From: Geothrix sp.
GTDB taxonomy: Bacteria > Acidobacteriota > Holophagae > Holophagales > Holophagaceae
DNA length: 64,000 nucleotides
NCBI GenBank assembly: GCA_019449415.1
Contig: JAGRPP010000023.1
Span: 186,001 to 250,000, forward strand
Direction: 5' to 3'
How positions within the stretch are numbered: position 1 is the stretch's first letter; every line of letters starts with the position of its first letter. A program made the translations under genes and the position numbers. Under the pieces are notes generated by a model that had not been told where the DNA came from, made no database searches, and saw nothing but the letters and a program-made list of their open reading frames with translations. Positions 2,227 through 63,146 of this stretch are shown piece by piece.

Positions 2227-3384
2227 TCAGCCCTCCTTCTTGTCCTGGCGCCGCTTGAGGGAGCGCCGGAGGACGATGGCGAAGTGCACGAGCAGGCCCA
2301 GGGAGACCAGCACGCAGGACACATACGGGAGCAGCCAGCCGGGATTTTCAACCACGGAAAGGACCGAGAGCGTGTCGTTCTTGCCGAAGCTCGCCTGGTA
2401 GAAGGTCTTGCCCTCGTACCGAAGCGGCTGGTTCATGTAGATGAGCACCTCGCGGGACTCGTTCTGGGCGGGATTCACCACCTGGACGAGGCTCGAGAAG
2501 TTCTTGGGGATGTCCGTTCCGGGATAGACATCGTGCCGGAACTGCTTGAGCGTGAAGGCATAGGGCAGGTACTGGCGGCGCAGGCGCATGGTCAGCGCGT
2601 AGGTGCGGCCCTCGTGGGTGAAGGTCTGCGGCTGGCCGATGGCCACGGAGGCCAGCCAGGTGCCGTAGCTCTGGCCGCCGGCGACGGGCTCCACGAAGAC
2701 CGAGGTCTGGTTCATGTCGTTGTCGGCCGTGACCGTGGGGCGCTCCACGATGGCCACGCCCTGACCCACGCCGGCCGTGGCCAGGGCGGGGGAACCGGGC
2801 GGCAGGTTGCTCAGCTCCGCGTTGGGGAAAAAGCGCTTCACATTTAGGGTGATGGGCGTGCCGGGGACGGGGATCGAGGCGCGGCGCGACAGCAGCGTGT
2901 CGGGGACGGAATAGACCTCGTCGAAGGCGGGGTCGGTGACATCGATGACGGCCAGTTCCACATTCTTGTAGCTCTGGACATAGTTGACCGTCTGGCCCAC
3001 CTCGATGGACATGTTGGTGTCCACCTGCATCATGCCGGCCACGAATTCGCCCGCGAAGAGGATCACCAGGCCCGAGTGGACGAGCCACATGCCGGCCTTG
3101 GTCCAGGAACGCTGGATGTCGAGCGTCTTGGCGATGAGGTTGAGGGTGAGGAGGAGGCCCACCAGGGCAGCACCCGGGAACACCGGGAGGGGGAAGGGCA
3201 GGGCCGGGAACTGGCGCCACACGAAGAAGCTGCGCATGTAGGCGTTCACGGCGCCCGCGGTGCCCATCTCCACCTGGGCCAGGGTGCAGAGCACCACCAG
3301 CGCCATGAGGAGGGCCAGGAGGACGATGGTGAGCTGGAAGGACTTCAGGAATTTCCAGAGGCGGGTGGCGAGTGTCTTAATCAA
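2227..3384 (-). CDS. resB: Cytochrome c biogenesis protein ResB
   Basis: This is the ResB partner of CcsA in system II heme attachment. The N-terminus has two hydrophobic helices (LTIVLLALLMALVVLCTL and a second near residues 60-80). A third near residue 95 is followed by a long periplasmic beta-rich region and a final helix near the C-terminus, the ResB layout. I chose a TTG start at 3384 because GGAGAG lies 8 bases upstream and the frame then begins LIKTLATRLWKFLKS, which is normal for the family. A longer frame to 3450 would overlap the upstream gene by over 70 bases. The start overlaps the preceding stop by 8 bases, indicating translational coupling. Confidence 0.9.
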   Translation of the reverse strand: MIKTLATRLWKFLKSFQLTIVLLALLMALVVLCTLAQVEMGTAGAVNAYMRSFFVWRQFPALPFPLPVFPGAALVGLLLTLNLIAKTLDIQRSWTKAGMWLVHSGLVILFAGEFVAGMMQVDTNMSIEVGQTVNYVQSYKNVELAVIDVTDPAFDEVYSVPDTLLSRRASIPVPGTPITLNVKRFFPNAELSNLPPGSPALATAGVGQGVAIVERPTVTADNDMNQTSVFVEPVAGGQSYGTWLASVAIGQPQTFTHEGRTYALTMRLRRQYLPYAFTLKQFRHDVYPGTDIPKNFSSLVQVVNPAQNESREVLIYMNQPLRYEGKTFYQASFGKNDTLSVLSVVENPGWLLPYVSCVLVSLGLLVHFAIVLRRSLKRRQDKKEG

Positions 3385-28448: not shown

Positions 28449-29741
28449 CTAGCCCCAGACCCGCTTGCCGCCCACCCAGGTGCCCAGGATCTTCCCGGGA
28501 AGGCTCCAGCCCTTGAAGGGGGTGTTGTAGGACTTGGACTGGATGAAGGCGCGGTCCACCTGGACCTGGGCGCTGGGGTCGAAGAGGACGAAGTCCGCGG
28601 GGGCGCCGGGCTTCAAGGTGCCGAGGCCCTGCTGGTCGAGGTGGAAGACCTTGGCGGGCTCCCAAGTGAGCAGGCTGATGGCCTTGGCCAGGCTGATGAC
28701 CTTCTTGTTCACCAGCAGCTCGAGCGTGAGGGGCAGGGCGGTCTCCAGGCCGATGACGCCGAAGGCGGCGATGGGCAGCTCCACTTCCTTGTCGTCCCAG
28801 CCGTGGGGGGCGTGGTCCGTGGCGATGGCGTCCACGGTGCCGTCCGCGATGGCCTCGAGCACGGCCTGGATGTCAGCTTCGGTGCGCAGGGGCGGGTTCA
28901 TCTTGTAGTCGCTGTCGAACTTCATCAGCTCCTTGTCCGACAGGGCGAAGTGGTGGGGCGTGACTTCGCAGGTGACGGCAAGGCCGCGCGCCTTGGCCTC
29001 GCGCACCATCCTCATGGAGCCCTTCGTGCTGAGGTGGGCCAGGTGCAGGTGGCCGCCGGTGTGCTCGGCCAGCACGATGTCGCGGGCCACCATGGCCTCT
29101 TCCGCCGCGGCGGGGATGCCGAGGCAGCCCAGCGACGCGCTCACGGCGCCCTCGTGCATGTAGCCCTTGCCCGCCAGCTCGCGATCTTCTTCGTGGGCCA
29201 CCACGGGCACCTCGAGCCAGCGCGTGTATTCCAAGGCGCGGCGCATGAGCGAGGCGCTGGAGATGGGCAGGCCGTCATCGGAGAAGGCCACGCAGCCGGC
29301 GGCCTTCAGCGTGCCCATGTCGGCCAGCTCCTCGCCCTTCATCTCGCGGCTGACGGTACCGATGGGGAAGTAGCGGCAGAGACCGGCCTTTGCGGCGCGG
29401 GTGAGCATCATCTCCGTGATGGCCACGCTGTCGTTCACGGGCTTGGTGTTGGCCATGGCGCACACGGAGGTGAAGCCGCCCGCCACCGCCGCCCGACTGC
29501 CGCTTTCGATGCTCTCCTTGCGGGTCTGCCCCGGCTCGCGGAAGTGCACATGGAGATCCACGAAGCCCGGCGTCAGCACCGCGCCGCCGCCGTCGACCAC
29601 CTCCACGCCTTCGTGCTTCGGCAGGGCCGCCGCGTCCGTGGCGATGGCTTCCACCTTCCCGTCCACCACCAGCAGCAGGCCGAGCCCGTCCAGGTTCTGC
29701 GCAGGATCGACCAGACGGACATTCTTCACGAGGAGGGACAT
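28449..29741 (-). CDS. pyrC: Dihydroorotase (class I type)
   Basis: The 430-residue zinc amidohydrolase performs the third step of pyrimidine synthesis (carbamoyl-aspartate to dihydroorotate). The metal motif is in FVDLHVHFREPGQ, followed by ANTKPVNDS, HLAHLSTKGSMRMVREAKARG (further His ligands), TCEVTPHHF, and ATDHAPHGWDDKEVE with the catalytic Asp. The usual GFP/E loop becomes SFDDGLP-like here (CVAFSDDGLP). The start at 29741 follows GGAG. guaB lies upstream on the same strand but a repeat-flanked GxxExxY gene separates them. Confidence 0.95.
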   Translation of the reverse strand: MSLLVKNVRLVDPAQNLDGLGLLLVVDGKVEAIATDAAALPKHEGVEVVDGGGAVLTPGFVDLHVHFREPGQTRKESIESGSRAAVAGGFTSVCAMANTKPVNDSVAITEMMLTRAAKAGLCRYFPIGTVSREMKGEELADMGTLKAAGCVAFSDDGLPISSASLMRRALEYTRWLEVPVVAHEEDRELAGKGYMHEGAVSASLGCLGIPAAAEEAMVARDIVLAEHTGGHLHLAHLSTKGSMRMVREAKARGLAVTCEVTPHHFALSDKELMKFDSDYKMNPPLRTEADIQAVLEAIADGTVDAIATDHAPHGWDDKEVELPIAAFGVIGLETALPLTLELLVNKKVISLAKAISLLTWEPAKVFHLDQQGLGTLKPGAPADFVLFDPSAQVQVDRAFIQSKSYNTPFKGWSLPGKILGTWVGGKRVWG

Positions 29742-29800
29742 GGGAGGCTCCGGGACTCTGAAACTCGGCAGACCACTGACGCTTCAAGATAAAAGAAGAA

Positions 29801-29840
29801 CACCGATGAACACCGATAAAAGCTGATGAACGCCGAAAAA
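29801..29840. repeat. Left arm of inverted periodic repeat around GxxExxY gene
   Basis: Four consecutive 10-base units (CACCGATGAA, CACCGATAAA, AGCTGATGAA, CGCCGAAAAA) form this arm. The first 29 bases are the exact reverse complement of 30240-30268. The 10-base period is one helical turn. The arm lies just past the stop of the GxxExxY gene, whose 3' side also carries a T-rich run on the minus strand. Confidence 0.9.
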
Positions 29841-29850
29841 AGCAGGAGGA

Positions 29851-30243
29851 CTAGCGGGAGATGCGTTTGATCTGGGGCTTGGGGGTTCCGAGGTTGATGA
29901 GAAGGCATGTGGGCAGACCGGTGGCCCGGAGGTAGTTGAGGCACTGGGCCGTGTGGACATCCTCCAGGGCCCGGCAGGCCTTCAGCTCGATGAGGAGCTG
30001 ACCTGCGACCACCAGGTCGGCGATGTCGTTGCCCACGACCTGATCTTGATAAGTCACGGTGATCGGGACCTGCTGCTGAAACGCGAGTCCCGCATTTCGC
30101 AACTCTATGGCCAGGGCGTTCTCGTAAACCTTCTCCAGAAAACCTGATCCCAGCCCGTTGGCCACCTTGAACAGCAACCCAATCACGACCTCCGTCAACG
30201 GATCATGATCCGGCCTCGAATGTCGTTCTTGATCGGTGCTCAT
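29851..30243 (-). CDS. GxxExxY protein
   Basis: The 130-residue protein has the signature GSGFLEKVYENAL (GxxExxY) near residues 32-44. It continues with VTYQDQVVGNDIADLVVAGQLLIELKACRAL and ends CLLINLGTPKPQIKRIS. The core (VGNDIADLVVAGQLLIELKA) has the D-x(n)-E-x-K arrangement of PD-(D/E)XK nuclease-like folds, which suggests but does not prove a nucleic-acid function. The start codon and first six residues (MSTDQE) are encoded by units 3 and 4 of the right repeat arm. It splits pyrC from guaB, so it is probably an insertion. Confidence 0.9.
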   Translation of the reverse strand: MSTDQERHSRPDHDPLTEVVIGLLFKVANGLGSGFLEKVYENALAIELRNAGLAFQQQVPITVTYQDQVVGNDIADLVVAGQLLIELKACRALEDVHTAQCLNYLRATGLPTCLLINLGTPKPQIKRISR

Positions 30244-30268
30244 CAGCTTTTATCGGTGTTCATCGGTG
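30229..30268. repeat. Right arm of inverted periodic repeat, containing start codon of GxxExxY gene
   Basis: Read on the minus strand this is CACCGATGAA, CACCGATAAA, AGCTGATGAG, CACCGATCAA. Bases 30240-30268 exactly mirror the left arm. The ATG at 30243-30241 lies in unit 3, and unit 4 encodes Thr-Asp-Gln. No Shine-Dalgarno sequence is visible before this ATG. Confidence 0.9.
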
Positions 30269-30290
30269 GTCTGCTTTTCGGTCGCCCCGG

Positions 30291-31751
<1,461 letters not shown>

Positions 31752-31869
31752 GGGGAGCCTTCGGTCGGGGCCCGCGGCCTGCGGCGCCTTGCAAGACATG
31801 GTCTCACGGGGCGGCCCGAGGTTCCAGGGCCAGGTCCCGGGGGGCGCCAGGATTCGCGGGGCGGCGGTT

Positions 31870-34088: not shown

Positions 34089-34098
34089 CAAGTTTTTT

Positions 34099-34169
34099 AA
34101 CCGCAGAGGGCGCAGAGGACGCAGAGAAAGAAGGTTTTCTACTCTGCGATCTCTGTGCCCTCTGCGGTT
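34099..34169. repeat. Solo palindromic hairpin with 9-base periodic arms
   Basis: The left arm 34099-34126 and right arm 34142-34169 are inverted copies (25 of 28 bases match) separated by 15 bases. Each arm is three 9-base units (CCGCAGAGG, GCGCAGAGG, ACGCAGAGA). The design mirrors the GxxExxY repeat pair at 29801/30268 but encloses no gene. It lies between the convergent ends of DUF465 and hutI. Confidence 0.88.
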
Positions 34170-34182
34170 GAATGCTTTTTCC

Positions 34183-63070: not shown

Positions 63071-63146
63071 TAGCCAGGATGAAGGGGATCAAGGGGATTT
63101 CAAGAAGCTGCTCTTGTCATCCCCTCCATCCCCTTCATCCTGGCTA
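63071..63146. repeat. Solo palindromic hairpin with 9-base periodic arms
   Basis: Left arm 63071-63098 and right arm 63119-63146 are inverted copies (26 of 28 bases). Each contains 9-base units (CCAGGATGA, AGGGGATCA, AGGGGATTT). The 20-base spacer can form a further 5-bp stem. It lies between the convergent lipoprotein and XRE genes. Confidence 0.9.

Follow-up and report, generated by a model that had tools for sequence, protein, structure and literature searches.

A Geothrix genome (Holophagaceae, Acidobacteriota) carries, between pyrC and guaB, a small GxxExxY gene flanked by inverted arrays of 10-nt units. This arrangement raises the question of whether gene and arms form one mobile unit and whether the encoded protein acts on the arms. 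The window, meaning the whole stretch of 64,000 nucleotides analyzed here, lies on contig C7 of an assembly (G000) that is 64% complete. GxxExxY genes occur in many phyla, have no known function and have attracted almost no literature, being mentioned in 2 of 5.39 million papers, and a search of open-access papers found none linking them to repeats.

Periodic inverted arms frame the GxxExxY gene

The gene (29851–30243, minus strand) encodes 130 amino acids and adjoins two host genes, pyrC (dihydroorotase; 28449–29741, minus strand) and guaB (IMP dehydrogenase; 30291–31799, minus strand), which form the same junction in other genomes. The coordinates thus agree with an earlier note, made from the sequence, that the element separates pyrC from guaB. 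The pyrC-side arm, downstream of the gene, occupies 29791–29836 (plus strand), and the guaB-side arm, upstream of it, occupies 30233–30278 (minus strand). These 46-nt arms are 91% complementary and constitute the longest inverted repeat of the region, and within them the 29-nt sequence CACCGATGAACACCGATAAAAGCTGATGA at 29801–29829 (plus strand) has an exact inverted copy at 30240–30268. TRF determined a 10-nt period in both arms, at 29798–29836 and 30232–30268. The units are uneven: two read CACCGATGAA/CACCGATAAA, whereas the third, AGCTGATGA, and the fourth, ACGCCGAAAA/GCACCGATCA, are degenerate. Therefore, the two arms of 10-base units with 29 exactly inverted bases that the note described were found, with the refinements that the arms extend to 46 nt and that half of the units are degenerate. 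The ATG (30243–30241) and the first codons coincide with units 3 and 4 of the upstream arm, as had also been noticed. The whole element, arm, gene and inverted arm, measures approximately 490 bp.

The gene encodes a predicted Cas4/RecB-type nuclease

The window protein matched the profiles TIGR04256 (E-value 5.8e-38; 129.8 bits against a curated cut-off of 35) and PF13366 (PDDEXK_3; E-value 5.7e-38; 130.3 bits against 22). Across 35 relatives, G34, E37, Y40, D76, E86, K88, and Q100 were invariant and Y104 was nearly so, the first three residues making up the GxxExxY motif of the family. We take the GxxE, D, ExK, and QxxxY residues to be the motifs of RecB/Cas4-type nucleases. An AF2 model of the protein had a mean pLDDT of 92, with the first nine residues, those encoded by the arm, disordered, and its best match among solved structures was the Cas4 SSO0001 (4ic1; Z 10.4 over 98 residues, 3.2 Å); LHK-Exo, AddAB, and Hjc ranked below it. 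Searched by sequence, the PDB gave no significant match and hence no solved relative, and neither PADLOC nor PHROGs gave a match. The PD-(D/E)XK core that had been read from the D...ExK residues is upheld by the family assignment, by the invariant D76, E86, and K88, and by the predicted fold. The gene, as modeled, encodes a minimal Cas4/RecB-type PD-(D/E)XK nuclease, its activity being a prediction. A dN/dS of approximately 0.1 was found at four junctions, indicating that the protein is under purifying selection.

The AF2 model also resembled the fold of an XisH-type fdxN excision factor (2okf; Z 6.1). TAACTGA heptamers, which are known from Beggiatoaceae and cyanobacteria, have a taxonomic distribution similar to that of XisH/XisI (PMC4679880), and the two might represent a further protein-repeat pair.

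Gene and periodic arms occur together across eleven or more phyla

We examined 111 GxxExxY loci, 80 of them from one-genome-per-species contigs of many phyla, many of the genomes being MAGs. Because the contig scan used a narrow profile, these 80 all belong to the subfamily of the window gene, and other subfamilies were sampled mainly in Holophagaceae. An inverted flank score of at least 30 was obtained at 86% of the 111 loci. The same score was reached by 2.2% of 270 control genes taken from these loci and by none of 555 dinucleotide shuffles. These two controls replaced a mismatched-locus null, which was set aside as too strict because a common template underlies the arms of all loci. Of the 96 armed loci, 89 had a best arm period of 10 or 9 nt. 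Within Holophagaceae, 62 of 77 genomes carried GxxExxY genes, and 82 of 91 such loci had arms. According to the record titles, the 80 contig loci were distributed over Acidobacteriota, Nitrospirota, Desulfobacterota, Planctomycetota, Chloroflexota, Verrucomicrobiota, Pseudomonadota, Cyanobacteriota, SAR324, Methylomirabilota, and Abyssobacteria. Judged from sequence, gene and arms are combined in this way in eleven phyla or more, and they appear to make up a small mobile DNA element of a kind that is widespread and so far undescribed.

At one locus, in a proteobacterial MAG (L177, approximately 3001–3339), a GxxExxY gene is framed by two perfectly matching inverted copies of roughly 106 nt, which could be an assembly artifact.

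Arm words differ among loci and follow the protein

The arm units of all loci conformed to a template close to C-R-C-N-R-A-K-G-R-M, and the word varied by locus, among others CACCGATGAA, CACGGAGAAC, CACGAAGACA, CGCAGATGAC, CGCGAATGAC, CACAGATTTC, and ACAGGATTAA; relative to the window gene, CCAGGATGAAGGGGAT and CACGGAGAAC are non-cognate words. Arms of the same locus paired with a mean score of 53.6, compared with 23.9 for permuted arms (sd 0.86, n = 96), and word similarity tracked protein similarity with a Mantel r of 0.43 against a largest permuted value of 0.07 (pairs below 75% identity), both permutation values overstating independence because the loci are related by descent. At one orthologous junction, which precedes a gene identified by sequence as 3-hydroxyacyl-CoA dehydrogenase-like, both arms carried CGCAGATGAC in three species and CACAGATTTC in others. 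The window genome contains two further GxxExxY genes. The arms of the paralogue at C7:252298 carry the word CCAGGATGAAGGGGATAAAGGGGAT, whereas at C29:187689 a CCACAAAGGGCTCAAAGG-type inverted pair is confined to one side of the gene, and this locus failed the flank test. Since the window and paralogue arms carry different words, words vary among genes within one genome.

Arms and gene moved as one unit, and the occupied sites turn over

Elements at rpoB-rpoC and at ftsA-ftsZ were 82–83% identical over 476–497 bp. The similar stretch ran from a point 0–4 nt off the outer edge of one arm to a point 1–6 nt off that of the other, and the flanks were unrelated. Likewise, in deltaproteobacterial lineages (L113/L117 versus L125/L151), similarity began 8–9 nt outside one arm and ended 5 nt outside the other. 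Element homology bounded by the outer arm edges at unrelated sites indicates that arm-gene-arm was the unit that moved; on this comparative evidence, arms and gene travel together on the time scale of evolution, as the earlier note had proposed. Most close relatives share the same site, indicating that movement is rare.

The guaB-pyrC junction, classified by reading in 30 congeners, was occupied by a GxxExxY cassette in 5, an HNH cassette in 2, a gene-less 10-nt hairpin in 6, a 7-nt hairpin in 13, and a near-empty scar in 1, the remaining 3 being uninformative owing to a contig gap or a non-adjacent pyrC. Thus, the relatives differ in the cassette between the two genes, rather than all carrying the GxxExxY gene at the same place with degraded, non-inverted flanks. 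This one-genome-per-species sample contained no two genomes of one strain of which one had the site cleanly empty, and hence revealed no target duplication or excision footprint; at the element ends themselves, no target-site duplication was obvious.

One of the two HNH cassettes comes from a genome of the window's own species: in G010 (L044:3007–3693), a gene for a 228-aa HNH endonuclease lies within 10-nt arms with the word CACCAAGACA. The HNH gene was considered as an equal partner of the arms and rejected, since it is armed at guaB-pyrC alone and its relatives elsewhere have no arms.

Between the arms, the sole ORF matched to a family was GxxExxY, and none of the DDE, serine, or tyrosine transposases that mark insertion sequences was present. 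The 50 matches in one genome, G065, were considered as an element-driven burst and rejected, an insertion sequence with a DDE-like transposase end having captured an arm-flanked GxxExxY gene. That insertion sequence (L184–L212), the only burst seen, spread to dozens of copies, many of them with an internally deleted gene.

Gene-less hairpins carry the same words

Two gene-less hairpins are present in the window itself. At 34096–34172, AACCGCAGAGGGCGCAGAGGACGCAGAG and its inverted copy form a pair of 10-nt-unit arms of the same architecture. At 63071–63146, the word is AGCCAGGATGAAGGGGAT, that of the GxxExxY paralogue at C7:252298 approximately 3 kb away. Three simulated windows contained no hairpin reaching the score of these pairs. 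When an empty site was sought for the latter hairpin, the homology in G010 and G020 ended just before it.

The window's word, CACCGATGAACACCGAT, occurred 467 times in 32 of the 47 genomes of the genus, with up to 84 occurrences per genome, and its reversed-pattern control did not occur in any of the 47. These copies often formed opposed pairs approximately 60–150 bp apart, and arm copies lacking the gene numbered up to dozens per genome. Therefore, the search for the arm with and without the gene, which the earlier note had suggested, returned many copies of both kinds, and the possibility it had raised that no other arm copies exist in any genome is contradicted. Where a genome contained a gene with 64% or more identity to that of the window, the median was 14 CACCGATGAACACCGAT copies, against 1 in the remaining genomes (p = 7e-4); after the gene's own arms were subtracted, the contrast persisted (p = 0.005), both values being uncorrected for genome kinship. 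The total number of GxxExxY genes was not significantly correlated with CACCGATGAACACCGAT copy number (Spearman 0.17). G014 contained 10 CACCGATGAACACCGAT copies and no GxxExxY gene, and some other genomes were alike in this respect. The co-variation of word and protein and the larger number of word copies beside close gene relatives lend indirect support to the earlier suggestion that the protein may recognize its own arms.

Elsewhere in the window's assembly (L011:1157–2651, contig C27), a pair of arms with a word similar to that of the window stand opposed approximately 1.46 kb apart with several non-nuclease-like ORFs inside, possibly a composite element.

S23 genes carry arms of a 7-nt period

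The 7-nt hairpins at guaB-pyrC suggested that another small protein family would be the partner of that period, and the candidate set beforehand was the 23S-rRNA-IVS protein/four-helix-bundle family (TIGR02436, PF05635), which PHROGs ties to Avd of DGRs. In Holophagaceae, inverted arms flanked the S23 gene at 15 of 19 usable loci, 14 of them with period 7. Among 30 further S23 loci from genomes of many phyla, 26 had arms, with a period of 7 in 22 and of 8 in 4. Each S23 locus (L073–L098, L293–L322) has its own heptamer. That S23 arms share the architecture at 7 nt indicates that the period belongs to the protein family and not to the DNA helix. The earlier argument that a 10-base period places every unit on the same face of the helix thus fails as a principle.

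Proposed mechanism and alternatives

We think it fairly probable that the element is mobile, or formerly was, that its nuclease recognizes and cuts the arms, and that the gene-less hairpins are derivatives. Recognition of the arms by the protein would probably involve a hairpin, a cruciform, or single-stranded DNA at the replication fork. The protein would cut at the arms, and host repair or replication would then insert the unit, or a gene-less arm pair, into intergenic junctions. The gene-less hairpins would be non-autonomous derivatives of the element, as REPINs are of RAYT/TnpA_REP, and each element lineage has its own word, the same in both arms. Arm recognition, cleavage, and the role of this protein rather than another enzyme as the mover are what we infer here; to our knowledge, no nuclease of this family has been shown to transpose anything.

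Alternatively, the arms could serve as operator arrays bound by the gene product itself or by a nucleoid protein, with the gene autoregulated through the arm at its start codon and the dispersed copies serving as chromosomal binding sites. A start codon within the upstream arm, seen at 52 of 96 loci, would suit such a role, as would a 10-bp unit of about one helical turn and the co-variation of word and protein; moreover, opposite-strand tandem 7–8-mer arrays of Geobacter metallireducens are read as IHF/HU sites (PMC2700814). Yet operators leave unexplained the inverted arm behind the gene, the arm-bounded homology at different sites, the cassette swapping at guaB-pyrC, and the 7-nt class, and we regard this explanation as unlikely. 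Similarly little credence is due to the idea that the arms are a REP-like repeat in their own right, mobilized by a different enzyme, and that GxxExxY hitch-hikes between two of them like the HNH gene. Such an HNH gene does lie between the arms at guaB-pyrC in three genomes and is unarmed elsewhere, the words are found in gene-free genomes, and one element was captured by an insertion sequence, but a mere passenger fits poorly with arms at so large a majority of loci in 11 phyla, with a word that co-varies with protein phylogeny, with the low dN/dS, and with the link between a different period and a second protein family that is unrelated to the first.

We hold it still more improbable that the element acts at the RNA level like the intervening sequence (IVS) of 23S rRNA, its arms pairing in the transcript and RNase III excising it so that insertion into operons is harmless. 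The S23 proteins of these IVSs are the other cargo family, the Coxiella IVS is described as selfish with a 28-bp terminal stem (PMC4990558), and many element copies lie within operons, such as ftsA-ftsZ, rpoB-rpoC, and carA-carB. However, differences between arms exhibited no G-U preference, the near equality of 117 wobble-compatible and 115 incompatible transitions arguing against selection for an RNA stem, and gene orientation relative to neighbors was only weakly polarized across loci. As for chance or an artifact of low-complexity intergenic sequence, the units are indeed short and degenerate, but the shuffle, control-gene, and reversed-pattern controls refute this explanation, and its probability is negligible.

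Returning to the proposed nuclease-driven element, a broader proposal that we advance tentatively, at slightly less than even confidence, is that it belongs to an undescribed superclass of prokaryotic mobile elements with periodic inverted arms and two or more engines unrelated to each other, including a stand-alone Cas4/RecB-like nuclease for the 10-nt arms and an S23/Avd-like four-helix-bundle protein for the 7-nt arms. The period would be the footprint of the protein, the protein of each lineage would read that lineage's own word, and hairpins without a gene would be mobilized in trans. The link to arms makes GxxExxY genes and the unexplained paired repeats of genome papers one testable system, and it offers natural pairs of a small nuclease and a candidate cognate word that differ by lineage. 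With a second family of different period, a protein-to-period rule also becomes testable.

Comparison with known systems

Cas4, RecB, and AddB nuclease domains share both the PD-(D/E)XK fold and the D, ExK, and QxxxY motifs with the protein encoded in the window; the latter, however, is a stand-alone protein of 130 aa, adjoined by neither cas1 nor a helicase. Like the element, the 23S rRNA IVS with an S23 ORF is small, has terminal inverted repeats around one small ORF and has been called selfish (PMC4990558), and genes of its S23 family are what the 7-nt sister class carries as cargo. In contrast to the IVS, the element is intergenic (guaB/pyrC), its ORF is a PF13366 nuclease, its units are 10 nt long, and it has no sign of RNA-pairing selection. 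The heptamer/octamer arrays of Geobacter metallireducens are likewise opposite-strand pairs of short tandem arrays with many intergenic copies, but they are read as IHF/HU sites, with no link to GxxExxY or S23 in the main-text parts consulted (PMC2700814).

A close parallel is REPIN/RAYT (TnpA_REP) and the REPtrons, in which a single-domain nuclease gene also lies between inverted short repeats, repeat doublets are also dispersed through the genome as hairpins, and the repeat type also follows the protein subclass (PMC6006769, PMC3116915). The element shares with them a gene between inverted copies of a dispersed repeat and dispersed hairpin doublets. It differs in its enzyme, PD-(D/E)XK (PF13366) instead of HuH-Tyr (Y1), in its arms, periodic 10-nt arrays instead of a 20–40 nt palindrome with a GTAG-type tetranucleotide, and in that arm-gene-arm moves as one unit, which REPtrons are reported not to do. 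Since the HuH-Tyr enzyme that defines REPIN/RAYT is absent, the element is not a member. By analogy, the element is best read as a REPIN/RAYT-like system in which a Cas4/RecB-type nuclease would take the place of the HuH transposase.
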